Shown here piece after piece: positions 53,149 to 64,000 of a DNA stretch of 64,000 nt. Source of the stretch: Thermobifida halotolerans. Its GTDB lineage: Bacteria; Actinomycetota; Actinomycetes; Streptosporangiales; Streptosporangiaceae. Below the pieces are notes generated by a model. The model searched no databases. It was not told the DNA's origin and saw nothing but the letters and a program-made list of their open reading frames with translations. Both the position numbers and the translations under genes were made by a program. How positions within the stretch are numbered: the first letter of the stretch is position 1; each line of letters starts with the position of its first letter. The stretch spans positions 930,001-994,000 of the forward strand of contig NZ_CP063196.1 in assembly GCF_003574835.2 (NCBI RefSeq). The letters run 5' to 3'.

Positions 53149-56100
53149 ATGGAGCGGCAGTTCGTGGCGGACCGGTTCCGACTGCGGGAACTCCTCGGTC
53201 GGGGCAACATGGGCGAGGTCTACCGCGCCGAGAACGTCTGGGCCGAACTCGGCGACCCCGACCGGCAGGTCGCCCTCAAACTGATCCTCCAGCGCCGCTC
53301 CGGCGCGCCGGTCGACCCCGACGACGCCCAGGCGCAGCGGTTCGCCCGCGAGGTCGAGATCATGCGCCGCCTCGACCACCCCGGCATCCCCCGCCTGTAC
53401 GAGGGCGGAGTCGACACCTCCGACGGCGCGCTGCCCTACCTCGCCATGGAGCTGCTCGACGGCCACCCGTTGTGCGACCTCTGCGACGAGGAGCCGCAAC
53501 TGCCGGTCTCCTGGGTCGCGGCGTTCGGCGCGCAGATCGCCGACGCCCTGGACGCCGCGCACACCGCCGGAATCGTCCACCGCGACCTCAAGCCCGCCAA
53601 CGTGATGCTGGTGCGCGGCGGCCGGGTCAAGGTCCTCGACTTCGGCATGGGCCGCATCGTCGACGACCCCAACATCGCCCGGCTCACCAGCACCGCCGCG
53701 ACCGTGGGCACCGCCCGCTACATGGCCCCCGAGCAGTTCGACAACAGCCGGGTCACCGCCGCCGCCGACCTGTACGCCCTGGGTTGCGTCCTCTACGAAC
53801 TGCTCACCGGAGGCCCGCCGTTCACCGGCAACACCCTCCTGGAACTGGGCCAGGCACACCAGAAGCAGCCCCCGCCGCCCCTGGGCGTGGTTCGCAAGGG
53901 CGTACCCAGCTCCCTGGTCAGCCTCGTCGACCGGCTGCTGCGCAAGGACCCCGCCGCCCGCCCGGCCAGCGCCGCCGAGGTCCGCGACGCCCTGCTGCCC
54001 CTCGCCGTCGGCGACTCCGCGGTGGTCGGCTGGGACGACTACAACCCGCTACGCTGCCTGCCCCGGACCGTCCCCGCCGCGACAGAGGCGGACACCCCCG
54101 GGACGCCGGAATCCCGAGGCGGCGCGCCCACCGGCGTCATGGACGTCTTCGGCCTGCACGACCGGCTCATCCGCGACTACCGCGCCTTCACCGAGGGCGG
54201 CACCGTCATCCGCGACGGGCGCATCGCCGACTTCCTCGCCAGGGACCTGGACGCCAGGTCCCAGTGGCCCGACCCGTGGCTGTCGCTCAACCCGTTCTTC
54301 GCCTCCGGCGGCACCGTGCCGAACCTGGTCGCCGAGGGCCTGCTGCACGAGGAGTGCGCCCGCGTCTTCCGTACCGGCAAGTCCCCCGACGACACCACCG
54401 GAAAGAGCGGACGCCCCCTCACCCTGCACCGCCACCAGCGCGAGGCCGTCCACGCGGCCAGAAGTGGACACTCCTACGTGCTGACCACCGGCACCGGTTC
54501 CGGCAAGTCGCTGTCCTACCTCATCCCGATCGTCGACCGGGTGCTGCGCGAACGCGAAGCCCAGGGCCCCAGGGCGGCCAACCGGGTGCGCGCCATCATC
54601 GTCTACCCGATGAACGCCCTGGCCAACAGCCAACTCAACGAACTGGAGAAGTTCCTGGTCCACGGCTACGGCAAAGGCCGCGAACCGGTCACCTTCGCCC
54701 GCTACACCGGCCAGGAGGACGAGCGCCGCCGCAAAGAACTGCGCGACAACCCGCCCGACATCCTGCTCACCAACTACGTGATGCTGGAGCTGATGCTCAC
54801 CCGCCCCGGTGACCGCAACTCCCTCATCACCATGGCGCGCGGCCTGGACTTCCTCGTCTTCGACGAACTGCACACCTACCGGGGCCGCCAGGGCGCCGAC
54901 GTCGCCCTGCTCGTCCGCCGTGTCCGCCAGGCATGTGAGGCCCCGAACGTGCAGTGCGTCGGCACGTCGGCCACCATGTCCTCCGAGGGCGGTGCCGAGG
55001 AGCAGAAACGGGTCGTCGCCGACGTCGCCACCGGAATCTTCGGCACCCCCGTCCACCCCGACCACGTCATCACCGAGACCCTGGTCCGCGCCACCGACGA
55101 CGCCCCCGACAGCGTCCCCGCCGAGCGGCTGGAACGCCCCGACGCGCCGCGCGCCTACGCCGAACTGGTGCGTGACCCGCTGGCCCGCTGGATCGAGAGC
55201 CGCTTCGGCCTGGCCGCCGACGTCTCCGGCCGCCTGGTGCGCCAGCGCCCCGGCCGCATCGAGGACGCCGCCGCCGAACTCTCCGCCGACACCGGCGTGT
55301 CCCGCGAGCAGTGCGTGCGGGCGATCCGACGCACCCTGGAGGCCGGAGCCGAGGCCCGCCACCCGCTCAACAACCGCCCCCTGTTCGCGTTCCGCCTGCA
55401 CCAGTTCCTGTCCAAGGGCGACACCGTCTACGTCACCCTGGACCACCCCGAACGCCGCTACCTCACCCGCGACTACCAGATGGAGCAGCCCGGCTCCGAC
55501 GGCAGGGTGCTGCTGCCGCTGGCGTTCTGCCGCGAGTGCGGCCAGGAGTACCTGACCGTGTGGCGCACCGAGACCGCCGACGGCGCCGTCTACAAGCCCC
55601 GCCGCGACACCGCCGCCACCGCCGACGGCGGCGTCGAGGGCTACCTGCACGTCGACCCCGACAACCCCTGGCCGCGCACCATCGAGGACGCCATCGAACA
55701 GCGCCGACTCCCCGAGTCCTGGCTGGAGGACGACGAGCACGGCCAAGAGCGCGTCCGCAACGCCTACCGGGACCGCGCGCCCCGCCGCGTCACCGTCGAC
55801 GTGCGCGGCGTCGAGGGCGGCGACGGAGTCGACGCCGCGTTCATCCCCGCGCCGTTCCTGTTCTGCCTGCACTGCGGGGTCAGCTACGAGCAGGTGCGCG
55901 GCAGGGACTTCGCGAAACTCGCCTCCCTCGACCAGGAGGGCCGCTCCTCGGCGACCTCCCTGGTCTCGGCGTCCATCGTCCGCTCCCTCAACGCCGTGCC
56001 GCGTGAGGCGCTGCCCGCCGAGGCCCGCAAACTCCTCACCTTCGTCGACAACCGCCAGGACGCCTCCCTGCAGGCCGGGCACTTCAACGACTTCGTGCAG

Positions 56101-62498: not shown

Positions 62499-64000
62499 TG
62501 TCCGCGATCGCCCGAAACCAGGTCTTTTCCGCCGTGCACACCGTCGGCGGCCTGCTGCCCGCCGACATGCTGGTCCGCATCAGCGAAGGCAGGGACGTGC
62601 CCGGGTGTGCGCCCGCCGACTACGGCGTGGTCGGCTCCCGCTCGGTGCGCGACGAGGCCGAACGCCACTGGGACTACCTCAAGAGCCTCTGGAAGGACCT
62701 GCGCGCCCACCTGCCGGTCGCCCCGCCCACCGATCCGCCGTCCGACCCCACGGGGCGGGCGGTGAAGGAGTGGGTGGAACCGCTGTTCGCCGAACTCGGC
62801 TTCGGCCGTCTCGCCGCGGTCGCCGCGCCCGGCATCACCGCCGACGACGGCACGAAGACCTTCCCGGTCAGCCACCACTGGCGGCACGTGCCCGTCCACG
62901 TCACCGCGTGGAACGCCGACCTCGACCGGCGTCCCGCCGGTGCGGGCACCGTGCCCCCGCAGTCGCTGGTGCAGGAATGCCTCAACCGCACCTCCGCGCA
63001 CCTGTGGGCGGTGGTCACCAACGGACGGCAGTTGCGGCTGCTGCGCGACTCCAGCGCCCTGGCCACCGCCGCCTACGTCGAGTTCGACCTGGAAGCGATC
63101 TTCGACGGCGAACTGTTCAGCGAGTTCGTGCTGCTGTACCGGCTGCTGCACGCCACCCGCTTCGAGACCGCCGACGGCGAGGCCCCGTCTGCGTGCTGGC
63201 TGGAGAAGTGGCGCACCCACGCCATCGACTCCGGCACCCGCGCCCTGGAGCAGTTGCGCAGGGGCGTGCAGGAGGCCATCACCGTGCTCGGCACCGGTTT
63301 CCTGCGCCACCCCGCCAACACGGCCCTGCGCGAGAACCTGGACTCCCGCGAGTTCCACACCGCGCTGCTGCGCCTGGTGTACCGGATGCTGTTCCTGTTC
63401 GTCGCCGAGGACCGCGACGCCCTGCACCCGCCGGTACCCGACGACGCCCCCGACGAGGTGAAGCAGGCGCACGAGAAGGCCCGGAAGCGGTACGAGAAGT
63501 ACTTCTCCTCCGCCCGGCTGCGCAGGCACGCCCGCAGGCGCAGGGGCACTGCCCACGGCGACCAGTACCGGGCGCTGCGCCTCGTCCTGGACGCCCTCGG
63601 CGACGAGAACGGCCGCCCCGAACTGGCGCTGCCCGCCCTCGGCGGCCTGTTCGACCACACCGACGCCGACACGGTGCTCGACGGCCTGGAACTGGCCAAC
63701 GAGTCCCTGCTCGGCGCGGTCCGCCACCTCGCCCAGGTCCGCGACCCCAAGTCGCGCCGCTGGCGCGCGGTGGACTACCGCAACCTCGACGCCGAAGAAC
63801 TGGGGTCGGTCTACGAGTCCTTGCTGGAACTGGTGCCCAAGTACAGCGCCTCGGAGCGCGTGTTCGAACTGGTGGAACTGGCGGGCAACACCCGCAAGAC
63901 CACCGGGTCGTACTACACGCCGTCCTCGCTGATCGAATGCCTGCTCGACTCCGCCCTTGACCCGGTCATCGACGACGCGGTCAAACGCGGCGAGGTCAAG
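62498..64000 (+). CDS. Eco57I/PglX-like DNA methylase, N-terminal part, runs off window
   Basis: The first 501 codons, with no stop before the window edge. The N-terminal half is helical (QECLNRTSAHLWAVVTNGRQ; RMLFLFVAEDRDAL), as in the large Eco57I-type/PglX/DrmMI adenine methylases. At about residue 470 stands TTGSYYTPSSLIECLLDSAL, the conserved entry to the methylase domain. The SAM and NPPY motifs must lie beyond the edge. It starts with ATG overlapping the SNF2 stop. In DISARM and BREX the equivalent enzyme marks self DNA and may also take part in targeting. Confidence 0.8.
   Translation, partial: MSAIARNQVFSAVHTVGGLLPADMLVRISEGRDVPGCAPADYGVVGSRSVRDEAERHWDYLKSLWKDLRAHLPVAPPTDPPSDPTGRAVKEWVEPLFAELGFGRLAAVAAPGITADDGTKTFPVSHHWRHVPVHVTAWNADLDRRPAGAGTVPPQSLVQECLNRTSAHLWAVVTNGRQLRLLRDSSALATAAYVEFDLEAIFDGELFSEFVLLYRLLHATRFETADGEAPSACWLEKWRTHAIDSGTRALEQLRRGVQEAITVLGTGFLRHPANTALRENLDSREFHTALLRLVYRMLFLFVAEDRDALHPPVPDDAPDEVKQAHEKARKRYEKYFSSARLRRHARRRRGTAHGDQYRALRLVLDALGDENGRPELALPALGGLFDHTDADTVLDGLELANESLLGAVRHLAQVRDPKSRRWRAVDYRNLDAEELGSVYESLLELVPKYSASERVFELVELAGNTRKTTGSYYTPSSLIECLLDSALDPVIDDAVKRGEVK

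Follow-up and report, generated by a model that had tools for sequence, protein, structure and literature searches.

Which defence system, if any, is served by a bacterial gene that encodes a protein kinase, a helicase, a DUF1998 domain and a nuclease in one chain, and what is the kinase for? The gene in question is the first of three on one strand, at 53149–59370, 59538–62498 and 62498–66643 of a 64,000-nucleotide stretch of the 5.5 Mb Thermobifida halotolerans genome (G000:C1:930001-994000), here called the window; the third gene ends beyond it, and positions past 64000 are given as window-equivalents, that is, in the same numbering carried on. The original prediction saw a candidate new defence system; its antiphage appearance and the kinase fusion are supported, its standing as a new class is not, since gene set and order are those of ARMADA Type I. 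The locus is very probably an ARMADA Type I operon, and we consider it probable, with less assurance, that it is an antiphage subtype in which a fused PknB-like kinase would serve as an in-cis switch and a helix-turn-helix (HTH) methylase-like protein as regulator.

Gene content and relation to ARMADA Type I

The first open reading frame (ORF) is open from 53086 to 59370 (2094 aa); the ATG at 53149, giving 2073 aa, is the likelier translation start because two close relatives, L040 and L042, have the corresponding MERQ methionine as their first residue. As predicted, its product (53149–59370, plus strand) joins kinase, SF2 helicase, DUF1998 and a nuclease-like tail: Pfam detects Pkinase (E 7.5e-43), DEAD (1.7e-26), Helicase_C (2.5e-11) and MZB/DUF1998 (6.7e-9). 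The kinase domain lies at 53182–53970, the helicase part at 54139–59370 (DEAD at 54430–54984, Helicase_C at 57007–57222), counted from an MDVF motif taken as the ancestral start, and the zinc-binding MZB/DUF1998 domain at 58639–58911. At the C-terminus Pfam gives a sub-threshold match to MTES_1575 (E 0.056). The last 147 residues were modelled (mean pLDDT 80.5), and the model resembles Vsr (1cw0; Z 8.2, rmsd 2.5, 91 residues; VIA) and the homing endonuclease I-Bth0305I (3r3p; Z 8.9; VIA), while Foldseek alone returned no match for it at E 0.001; as modelled, the tail (domain at 59056–59346) is a Vsr-type nuclease fold. The best PADLOC models for the helicase part are those of DruE, and YprA/MrfA (6znp) is among its nearest solved relatives; both CxxC pairs are invariant in all 31 aligned proteins, their placement in a barrel inserted into RecA2 being by position only. 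The kinase domain has PknB as its nearest solved kinase, and its alignment identifies it as carrying Hanks-type Ser/Thr kinase motifs, HRD[LV]K, DFG and [AS]PEQ being intact in 56 of 56 fused kinases.

The two genes that follow are an SNF2 helicase and, coupled to it, an adenine methylase, again as predicted. Gene 2 (59538–62498, plus strand, 986 aa) encodes an SNF2/RapA-like SF2 helicase of the BrxHII, DrmD and DpdE kind (best PADLOC model DpdE with 1646 bits; DrmD 275 bits), whose SNF2 Walker/DExH motifs are kept in 106 of 107 scored relatives. Gene 3 (62498–66643, plus strand, its window part reaching to 64000; 1381 aa) begins on the last base of gene 2 and encodes an Eco57I-type, PglX/DrmMI-like adenine methylase with an NPPW motif; its closest models are DrmMI and type IIG, and NPP[YFW] is kept in 102 of 102 scored relatives.

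ARMADA was defined in a preprint by Bell et al. 2025 (PMC12458937). There, a Type I operon starts with a YprA-like helicase whose C-terminus is a Vsr nuclease; a BrxHII/RapA-like helicase comes second and a PglX-like methylase third. The window has the three components, as identified by profile matches, in that order, which its relatives keep; its first protein has the modelled Vsr-type tail at the C-terminus and at least two CxxC zinc motifs in the RecA2-inserted barrel, the barrel again assigned by position. It is because gene set, order and Vsr tail fit the published definition that we assign the locus to ARMADA Type I. Relatives on plasmids likewise show the Type I order, and the reversed order occurs in a cyanobacterium, as the preprint says (PMC12458937). 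What sets the window apart from the Type I of the preprint's main text is the N-terminal kinase, the linked HTH-methylase gene and a shared palindrome: the words “kinase”, “operator” and “palindrom” are absent from that main text, in which extra N-terminal domains are named only for Dpd and DISARM (PMC12458937). The core architecture had been catalogued already, the kinase fusion not, as far as that main text goes.

Other named systems fit less well. ARMADA Type II has the order BrxHII-PglX-YprA followed by a RelE-GajB-like gene; the order in the window differs, and the genes after its methylase are DUF5753/HTH proteins, unlike the Type II fourth gene. Druantia III also fuses a YprA helicase, DUF1998 and a nuclease, but DruE carries PLD nucleases and has DruH as partner (PMC12458937, PMC13192584), whereas the window protein has a Vsr-type tail and the DruH model matched none of the locus and neighbour proteins scanned. 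MADS resembles the locus in combining a kinase (mad6) with a methylase (mad2), but the mad1–mad8 set is not present in the window: among the proteins scanned only the mad6-like kinase and the mad1/mad2-like HTH-methylase gene were found, and no further mad genes.

Spread and origin of the kinase fusion

In a sample of 150 genomes of the family, 30 full-length relatives were followed, which with the window make a set of 31 loci; fragmentary or distant helicase matches (e.g., G049, G013, G114, G130) lie outside it. Fifteen of the 31 are fused (2067–2340 aa) and 16 unfused (1698–1790 aa). The survey for the conserved gene set thus recovered the same fusion ORF in 14 more of the family genomes sampled and, beyond that sample, in 41 of the 80 named loci kept by the scan (none of nine viral contigs; 41 of 89 together), a recurrence which argues that the fusion is no product of chance. 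The 396 genomes sampled from the phylum include 23 with a match; one is the own genome, and a single other match has the length of the fused ORF; 64 plasmid records match strongly, and among the 20 listed one (Streptomyces sp. BHT-5-2) covers the kinase. The fusion was not described in the open-licence papers searched, and within that literature the evidence supports a fusion that is real, conserved and apparently new.

The kinase part stops directly before MDVF. Of the 16 unfused relatives, 10 have their ORF start at this motif and the other six within 66 residues of it; read from this alignment, a PknB-like kinase is joined right before the ancestral start. On a FastTree phylogeny of 114 helicases (the helicase frames of L140 and L159 are broken) the fusion state needs two changes, one gain and one loss, the latter in L110, where tblastn finds no kinase remnant. 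L125 and L162 form long branches inside the fused clade, and joins of such branches can be false. The nearest unfused branch consists of L054 and four Streptomyces loci; these four have a separate kinase gene directly upstream on the opposite strand, followed in two of them (L138 and L158) by an HTH-methylase gene. The fused kinases form one clade (SH-aLRT 99), and nearest to it stand the separate kinases of the sister branch and two kinases of the own genome.

Several loci combine kinases with related helicases in other ways. The own genome has a DISARM-like locus (L246:1846-13418; G000:C1:3934001-3953000) with DrmA, DrmB, a gene of the HTH-methylase family, a Ser/Thr kinase and a GajB/UvrD-like helicase, and the kinase encoded there is one of those most closely related to the fused ones. 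In Streptomonospora nanhaiensis (L093:2657-8400) the fused ARMADA operon is adjoined by a row of three genes, for a UvrD-like protein, a separate kinase akin to the one of that DISARM locus, and an HTH-methylase. The fused locus of Glycomyces arizonensis (L125:4150-17638) has the order methylase, kinase-helicase, SNF2 helicase.

The operon appears to have been gained or lost as a block, because a genome of the same genus (G040) preserves the arrangement of the MoaA and HTH-methylase genes and has none of the three genes. Where ARMADA stands in relatives, that site (L250, G040:C5) holds about 0.9 kb of low-GC DNA, possibly the end of a restriction enzyme gene, and no convincing ARMADA pieces were found in it. 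As G040 has the HTH-methylase gene alone, this gene is evidently viable without the operon. At the block ends no direct repeat of at least 12 bases was found in the two stretches compared, and no tRNA gene in the stretches scanned. Relatives occur on plasmids (67 records), and the three-gene operon is widespread in unfused form; one such operon, Type I-like and with its methylase annotated as two genes, is on plasmid MP1 of Deinococcus radiodurans R1 (L256:12013-23509).

The divergent HTH-methylase gene and its palindrome

Divergently from the operon, on the minus strand at 51217–53019, lies an ORF of 600 aa (probable start near 52854) with a weak Pfam HTH and an N6-methylase domain; PADLOC matches it weakly as mad1 and clearly as mad2. 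We propose that its product is the operon's regulator; neither this gene nor the palindrome treated below figured in the original prediction. Its motif I is kept (DPACGIGS) and its motif IV is degenerate, CDPPT departing from the N6-adenine methylase consensus [N/D]PP[YFW]. The aromatic residue is absent in 14 of 14 window-type loci and present in 11 of 13 other rows, and two subfamilies can be told apart, the window type, in which the motif IV aromatic is lost, and the other. An HTH-methylase gene is found near 14 of the 15 fused family loci and none of the 16 unfused ones (Fisher 5.7e-8, a value that includes the relatedness of the loci), within a zone that reaches, from the helicase start, some 6 kb upstream and 28 kb downstream, and at a match of at least 200 bits; five of the unfused stretches are shorter than 25 kb. 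Since the gene family is common (109 of 150 family genomes at E 1e-25), only linkage and the window-type subfamily were counted.

An operator-like palindrome of 15 bp, GTTTGCGAAGTAAAC (53003–53017; consensus GTTGAC-N3-GTCAAC), was located by a matrix scan, the matrix having been trained on eight sites from HTH-methylase gene promoters. Among 100 distinct loci (seven named duplicates of family loci, L166, L169, L171 and L132 (upstream too short) are omitted; promoter zones of 700 nt for fused and 640 nt for unfused loci) 38 of the 54 fused and 3 of the 46 unfused ones have it ahead of the kinase-helicase gene, the three unfused being the kinase-loss locus L110, L131 of the sister branch, and L170; without the seven training loci, 31 of 47 fused loci have it. 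Outside promoter zones 30 sites occur in 2.44 Mb, and 33 of 3000 shuffled zones reach the score. Before the helicase gene the palindrome is present in all 14 window-type loci; of nine fused loci with only the other subfamily in view, eight are without it and L049 has it. Promoters of HTH-methylase genes outside the training set have it in 16 of 20 cases, 123–134 nt before the HTH anchor (L265, with a palindrome and no recognizable anchor motif, is outside the 16).

Operator and regulator go together: their table reads 32 and 0 versus 5 and 13 (L098, L102, L123 and L124 left out). In 43 genomes behind named loci a window-type gene (52–59% identity) occurs in 19 of 23 with palindrome-positive fused loci, compared with none of ten palindrome-negative fused, none of eight distant unfused and one of two sister-branch genomes; in 15 of the 19 its contig is as long as the helicase's, apparently the same one, and it lies 17–45 kb from the helicase. 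In the window a TGTAC box, possibly an extended −10 element, follows on the plus strand 33 nt past the palindrome (53051–53055). The same gap measures 31–35 nt in 17 of 17 HTH-methylase gene sites, and of 43 sites on the operon side, 32 are followed by TGTAC, 26 of these at 31–33 nt; a few of the 43 face the divergent gene. This shared arrangement, in which the palindrome lies well 5′ of a −10-like box, suggests that an activator binds there. A search of the own genome for further members of the regulon gave three occurrences of the pattern, the same number as for its reversed control, with TGTAC at the proper spacing in the ARMADA copy alone.

Regulatory proteins of restriction and defence genes to which the proposed regulator may be likened are M.SsoII, in which a regulatory N-terminus is joined to an active cytosine methylase and controls restriction genes, BrxR, a WYL protein, and RptR, which binds TAGCTA; the window gene differs from M.SsoII in its N6-type domain with degenerate motif IV.

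Proposed working, alternatives and neighbouring loci

In the scheme we favour, the HTH-methylase-like protein would bind the palindrome upstream of TGTAC and control, probably activate, the operon as well as the gene that encodes it; sites and linkage are observed, binding and the sign of regulation conjectural. It may possibly act as a sensor of S-adenosylmethionine or DNA methylation. The PglX-like methylase, perhaps with the RapA-like translocase, would mark host DNA, as judged from its family. Upon infection the YprA helicase would load onto phage DNA where single strands are exposed, and cutting would fall to the Vsr tail, by analogy to E. coli ARMADA Type II, which protects against phages and requires all four genes (PMC12458937), and to DruE, a helicase-nuclease acting on single-strand-containing intermediates (PMC13192584). 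The fused kinase would autophosphorylate its activation loop and phosphorylate the helicase-nuclease or its partners, licensing or restraining the nuclease, much as PglW, whose kinase activity is required for Pgl resistance (PMC4365076), is proposed to signal in Pgl; this is the weak step of the scheme.

Several observations weigh against it. The kinase is dispensable for the core, because L110 lost it while retaining the rest of the operon, and in 16 of the 31 family loci it was never joined to the helicase. The nuclease motif is altered in six unfused loci and in L052 (the nuclease alignment, A2, covers 24 of 31 loci; L052, L061, L064, L065, L067, L068 and L069, with altered or short tails, are left out). 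A BrxA-like insert after RecA1 was not confirmed in the model of the window protein, that region giving weak winged-helix matches only (Z at most 4.3), no BREX BrxA among them. The palindrome is missing from 16 of 54 fused loci and 3 of the 20 test promoters, and five palindrome loci have no detected window-type gene; of the best 17 window-type rows 11 stand beside a fused operon and six elsewhere, one of the six in the same-genus genome that has no operon. Fusion, linkage and palindrome counts are uncorrected for relatedness of the loci, and we know of no ARMADA Type I member, fused or unfused, that has been tested experimentally.

In its sharpest form, that of a phosphorylation-gated helicase-nuclease subtype with a dedicated regulon under a degenerate HTH-methyltransferase activating itself and the operon, the proposal is put forward tentatively, at slightly less than an even chance; equally tentative is the part of it which holds that a single promoter design, a 15-bp palindrome followed after about 32 nt by TGTAC, serves both genes even where they lie 17–45 kb apart in a Streptomyces island. 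ARMADA would thereby gain a built-in signalling domain that one point mutation could silence, and the predicted control site and regulator are open to gel shift or reporter assay. If true, a degenerate DNA methylase as transcription factor would be a further mode of defence control beside WYL proteins (BrxR) and RptR; and as drmA-drmB in the own genome likewise have an HTH-methylase gene and a kinase behind them, the pairing of these two with YprA-type helicases may be more general.

It is possible, if rather unlikely, that the locus is a plain ARMADA Type I system which defends as its unfused relatives do, the kinase being an add-on which adjusts stability or ties the system into general stress signalling. 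The wide spread of unfused three-gene operons would fit, as would the fused-clade member that dropped its kinase and retained the rest; an add-on would hardly, however, have kept its motifs in every fused copy and been retained in many genera, the tree showing one loss, nor would it explain the separate kinase beside the four sister-branch operons.

A kinase that is itself the effector, phosphorylating host or phage proteins once the helicase senses phage DNA so that growth stops (abortive defence), is less likely still. PD-T4-6 defends as a stand-alone kinase, and the window kinase domain scores 292 bits with its PADLOC model and 242 bits with mad6; Hanks kinases in general reach such scores, however, and the nearest solved one is PknB. 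The window protein, as modelled, also keeps its Vsr nuclease fold, and E. coli ARMADA Type II works without cell death (PMC12458937).

DISARM, which has a PLD protein, DrmC, shares with the locus a DrmD-like helicase and a DrmMI-like methylase, their models matching genes 2 and 3, and a kinase alongside a PglX-like methylase recalls BREX type 2/Pgl. The DISARM/Pgl hybrid of the original prediction, or a new class of its own, is nevertheless improbable. The likeness to DrmD and DrmMI/PglX is there, but it is expected and no mark of a hybrid, because ARMADA and DISARM class I have these two genes in common (PMC12458937). DISARM keeps DrmA and DrmB as separate genes (PMC12458937), while the window has helicase and DUF1998 in one ORF together with Vsr nuclease and kinase; PglW consists of NERD, pseudokinase and kinase (PMC12839542), and no PglZ, PglY or BrxC model matched the neighbour proteins scanned (a 988-aa ORF at window-equivalent 79556-82522 was left out). 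Gene set, order and nuclease type are those of ARMADA Type I. Least probable by far is a DNA-repair operon after MrfA/YprA, suggested by the solved structure 6znp among the helicase's nearest relatives, in view of the patchy distribution in the phylum, the empty site in G040 and the relatives on plasmids.

Past the window the contig continues, after the end of the methylase gene at window-equivalent 66643, with genes for HTH/DUF5753 proteins, an HATPase, two NB-ARC-TPR proteins, a DUF6879 protein and a NUDIX protein (L006:6284-17141; window-equivalent 67284-78141). In several relatives AAA_5 (McrB-like) genes lie 3′ of the methylase (L043:18289-19950, L046:18232-19950, L048:2-1756, L061, L062 and L064), with DUF4357 in three. 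Elsewhere in the own genome, on the minus strand, are a DruE-like helicase of 1787 aa (L249:7070-12433; G000:C1:676001-695000; PADLOC DruE3, 594 bits), beside which a 1163-aa ORF matches no PADLOC model, and an 811-aa fragment that shares 58% identity with residues 1–502 of the helicase part in the window (L248:5426-7861; G000:C1:128001-142000). A Nocardioides plasmid carries drmA-drmB, ARMADA and a McrC gene in one stretch (L260:23929-27838).

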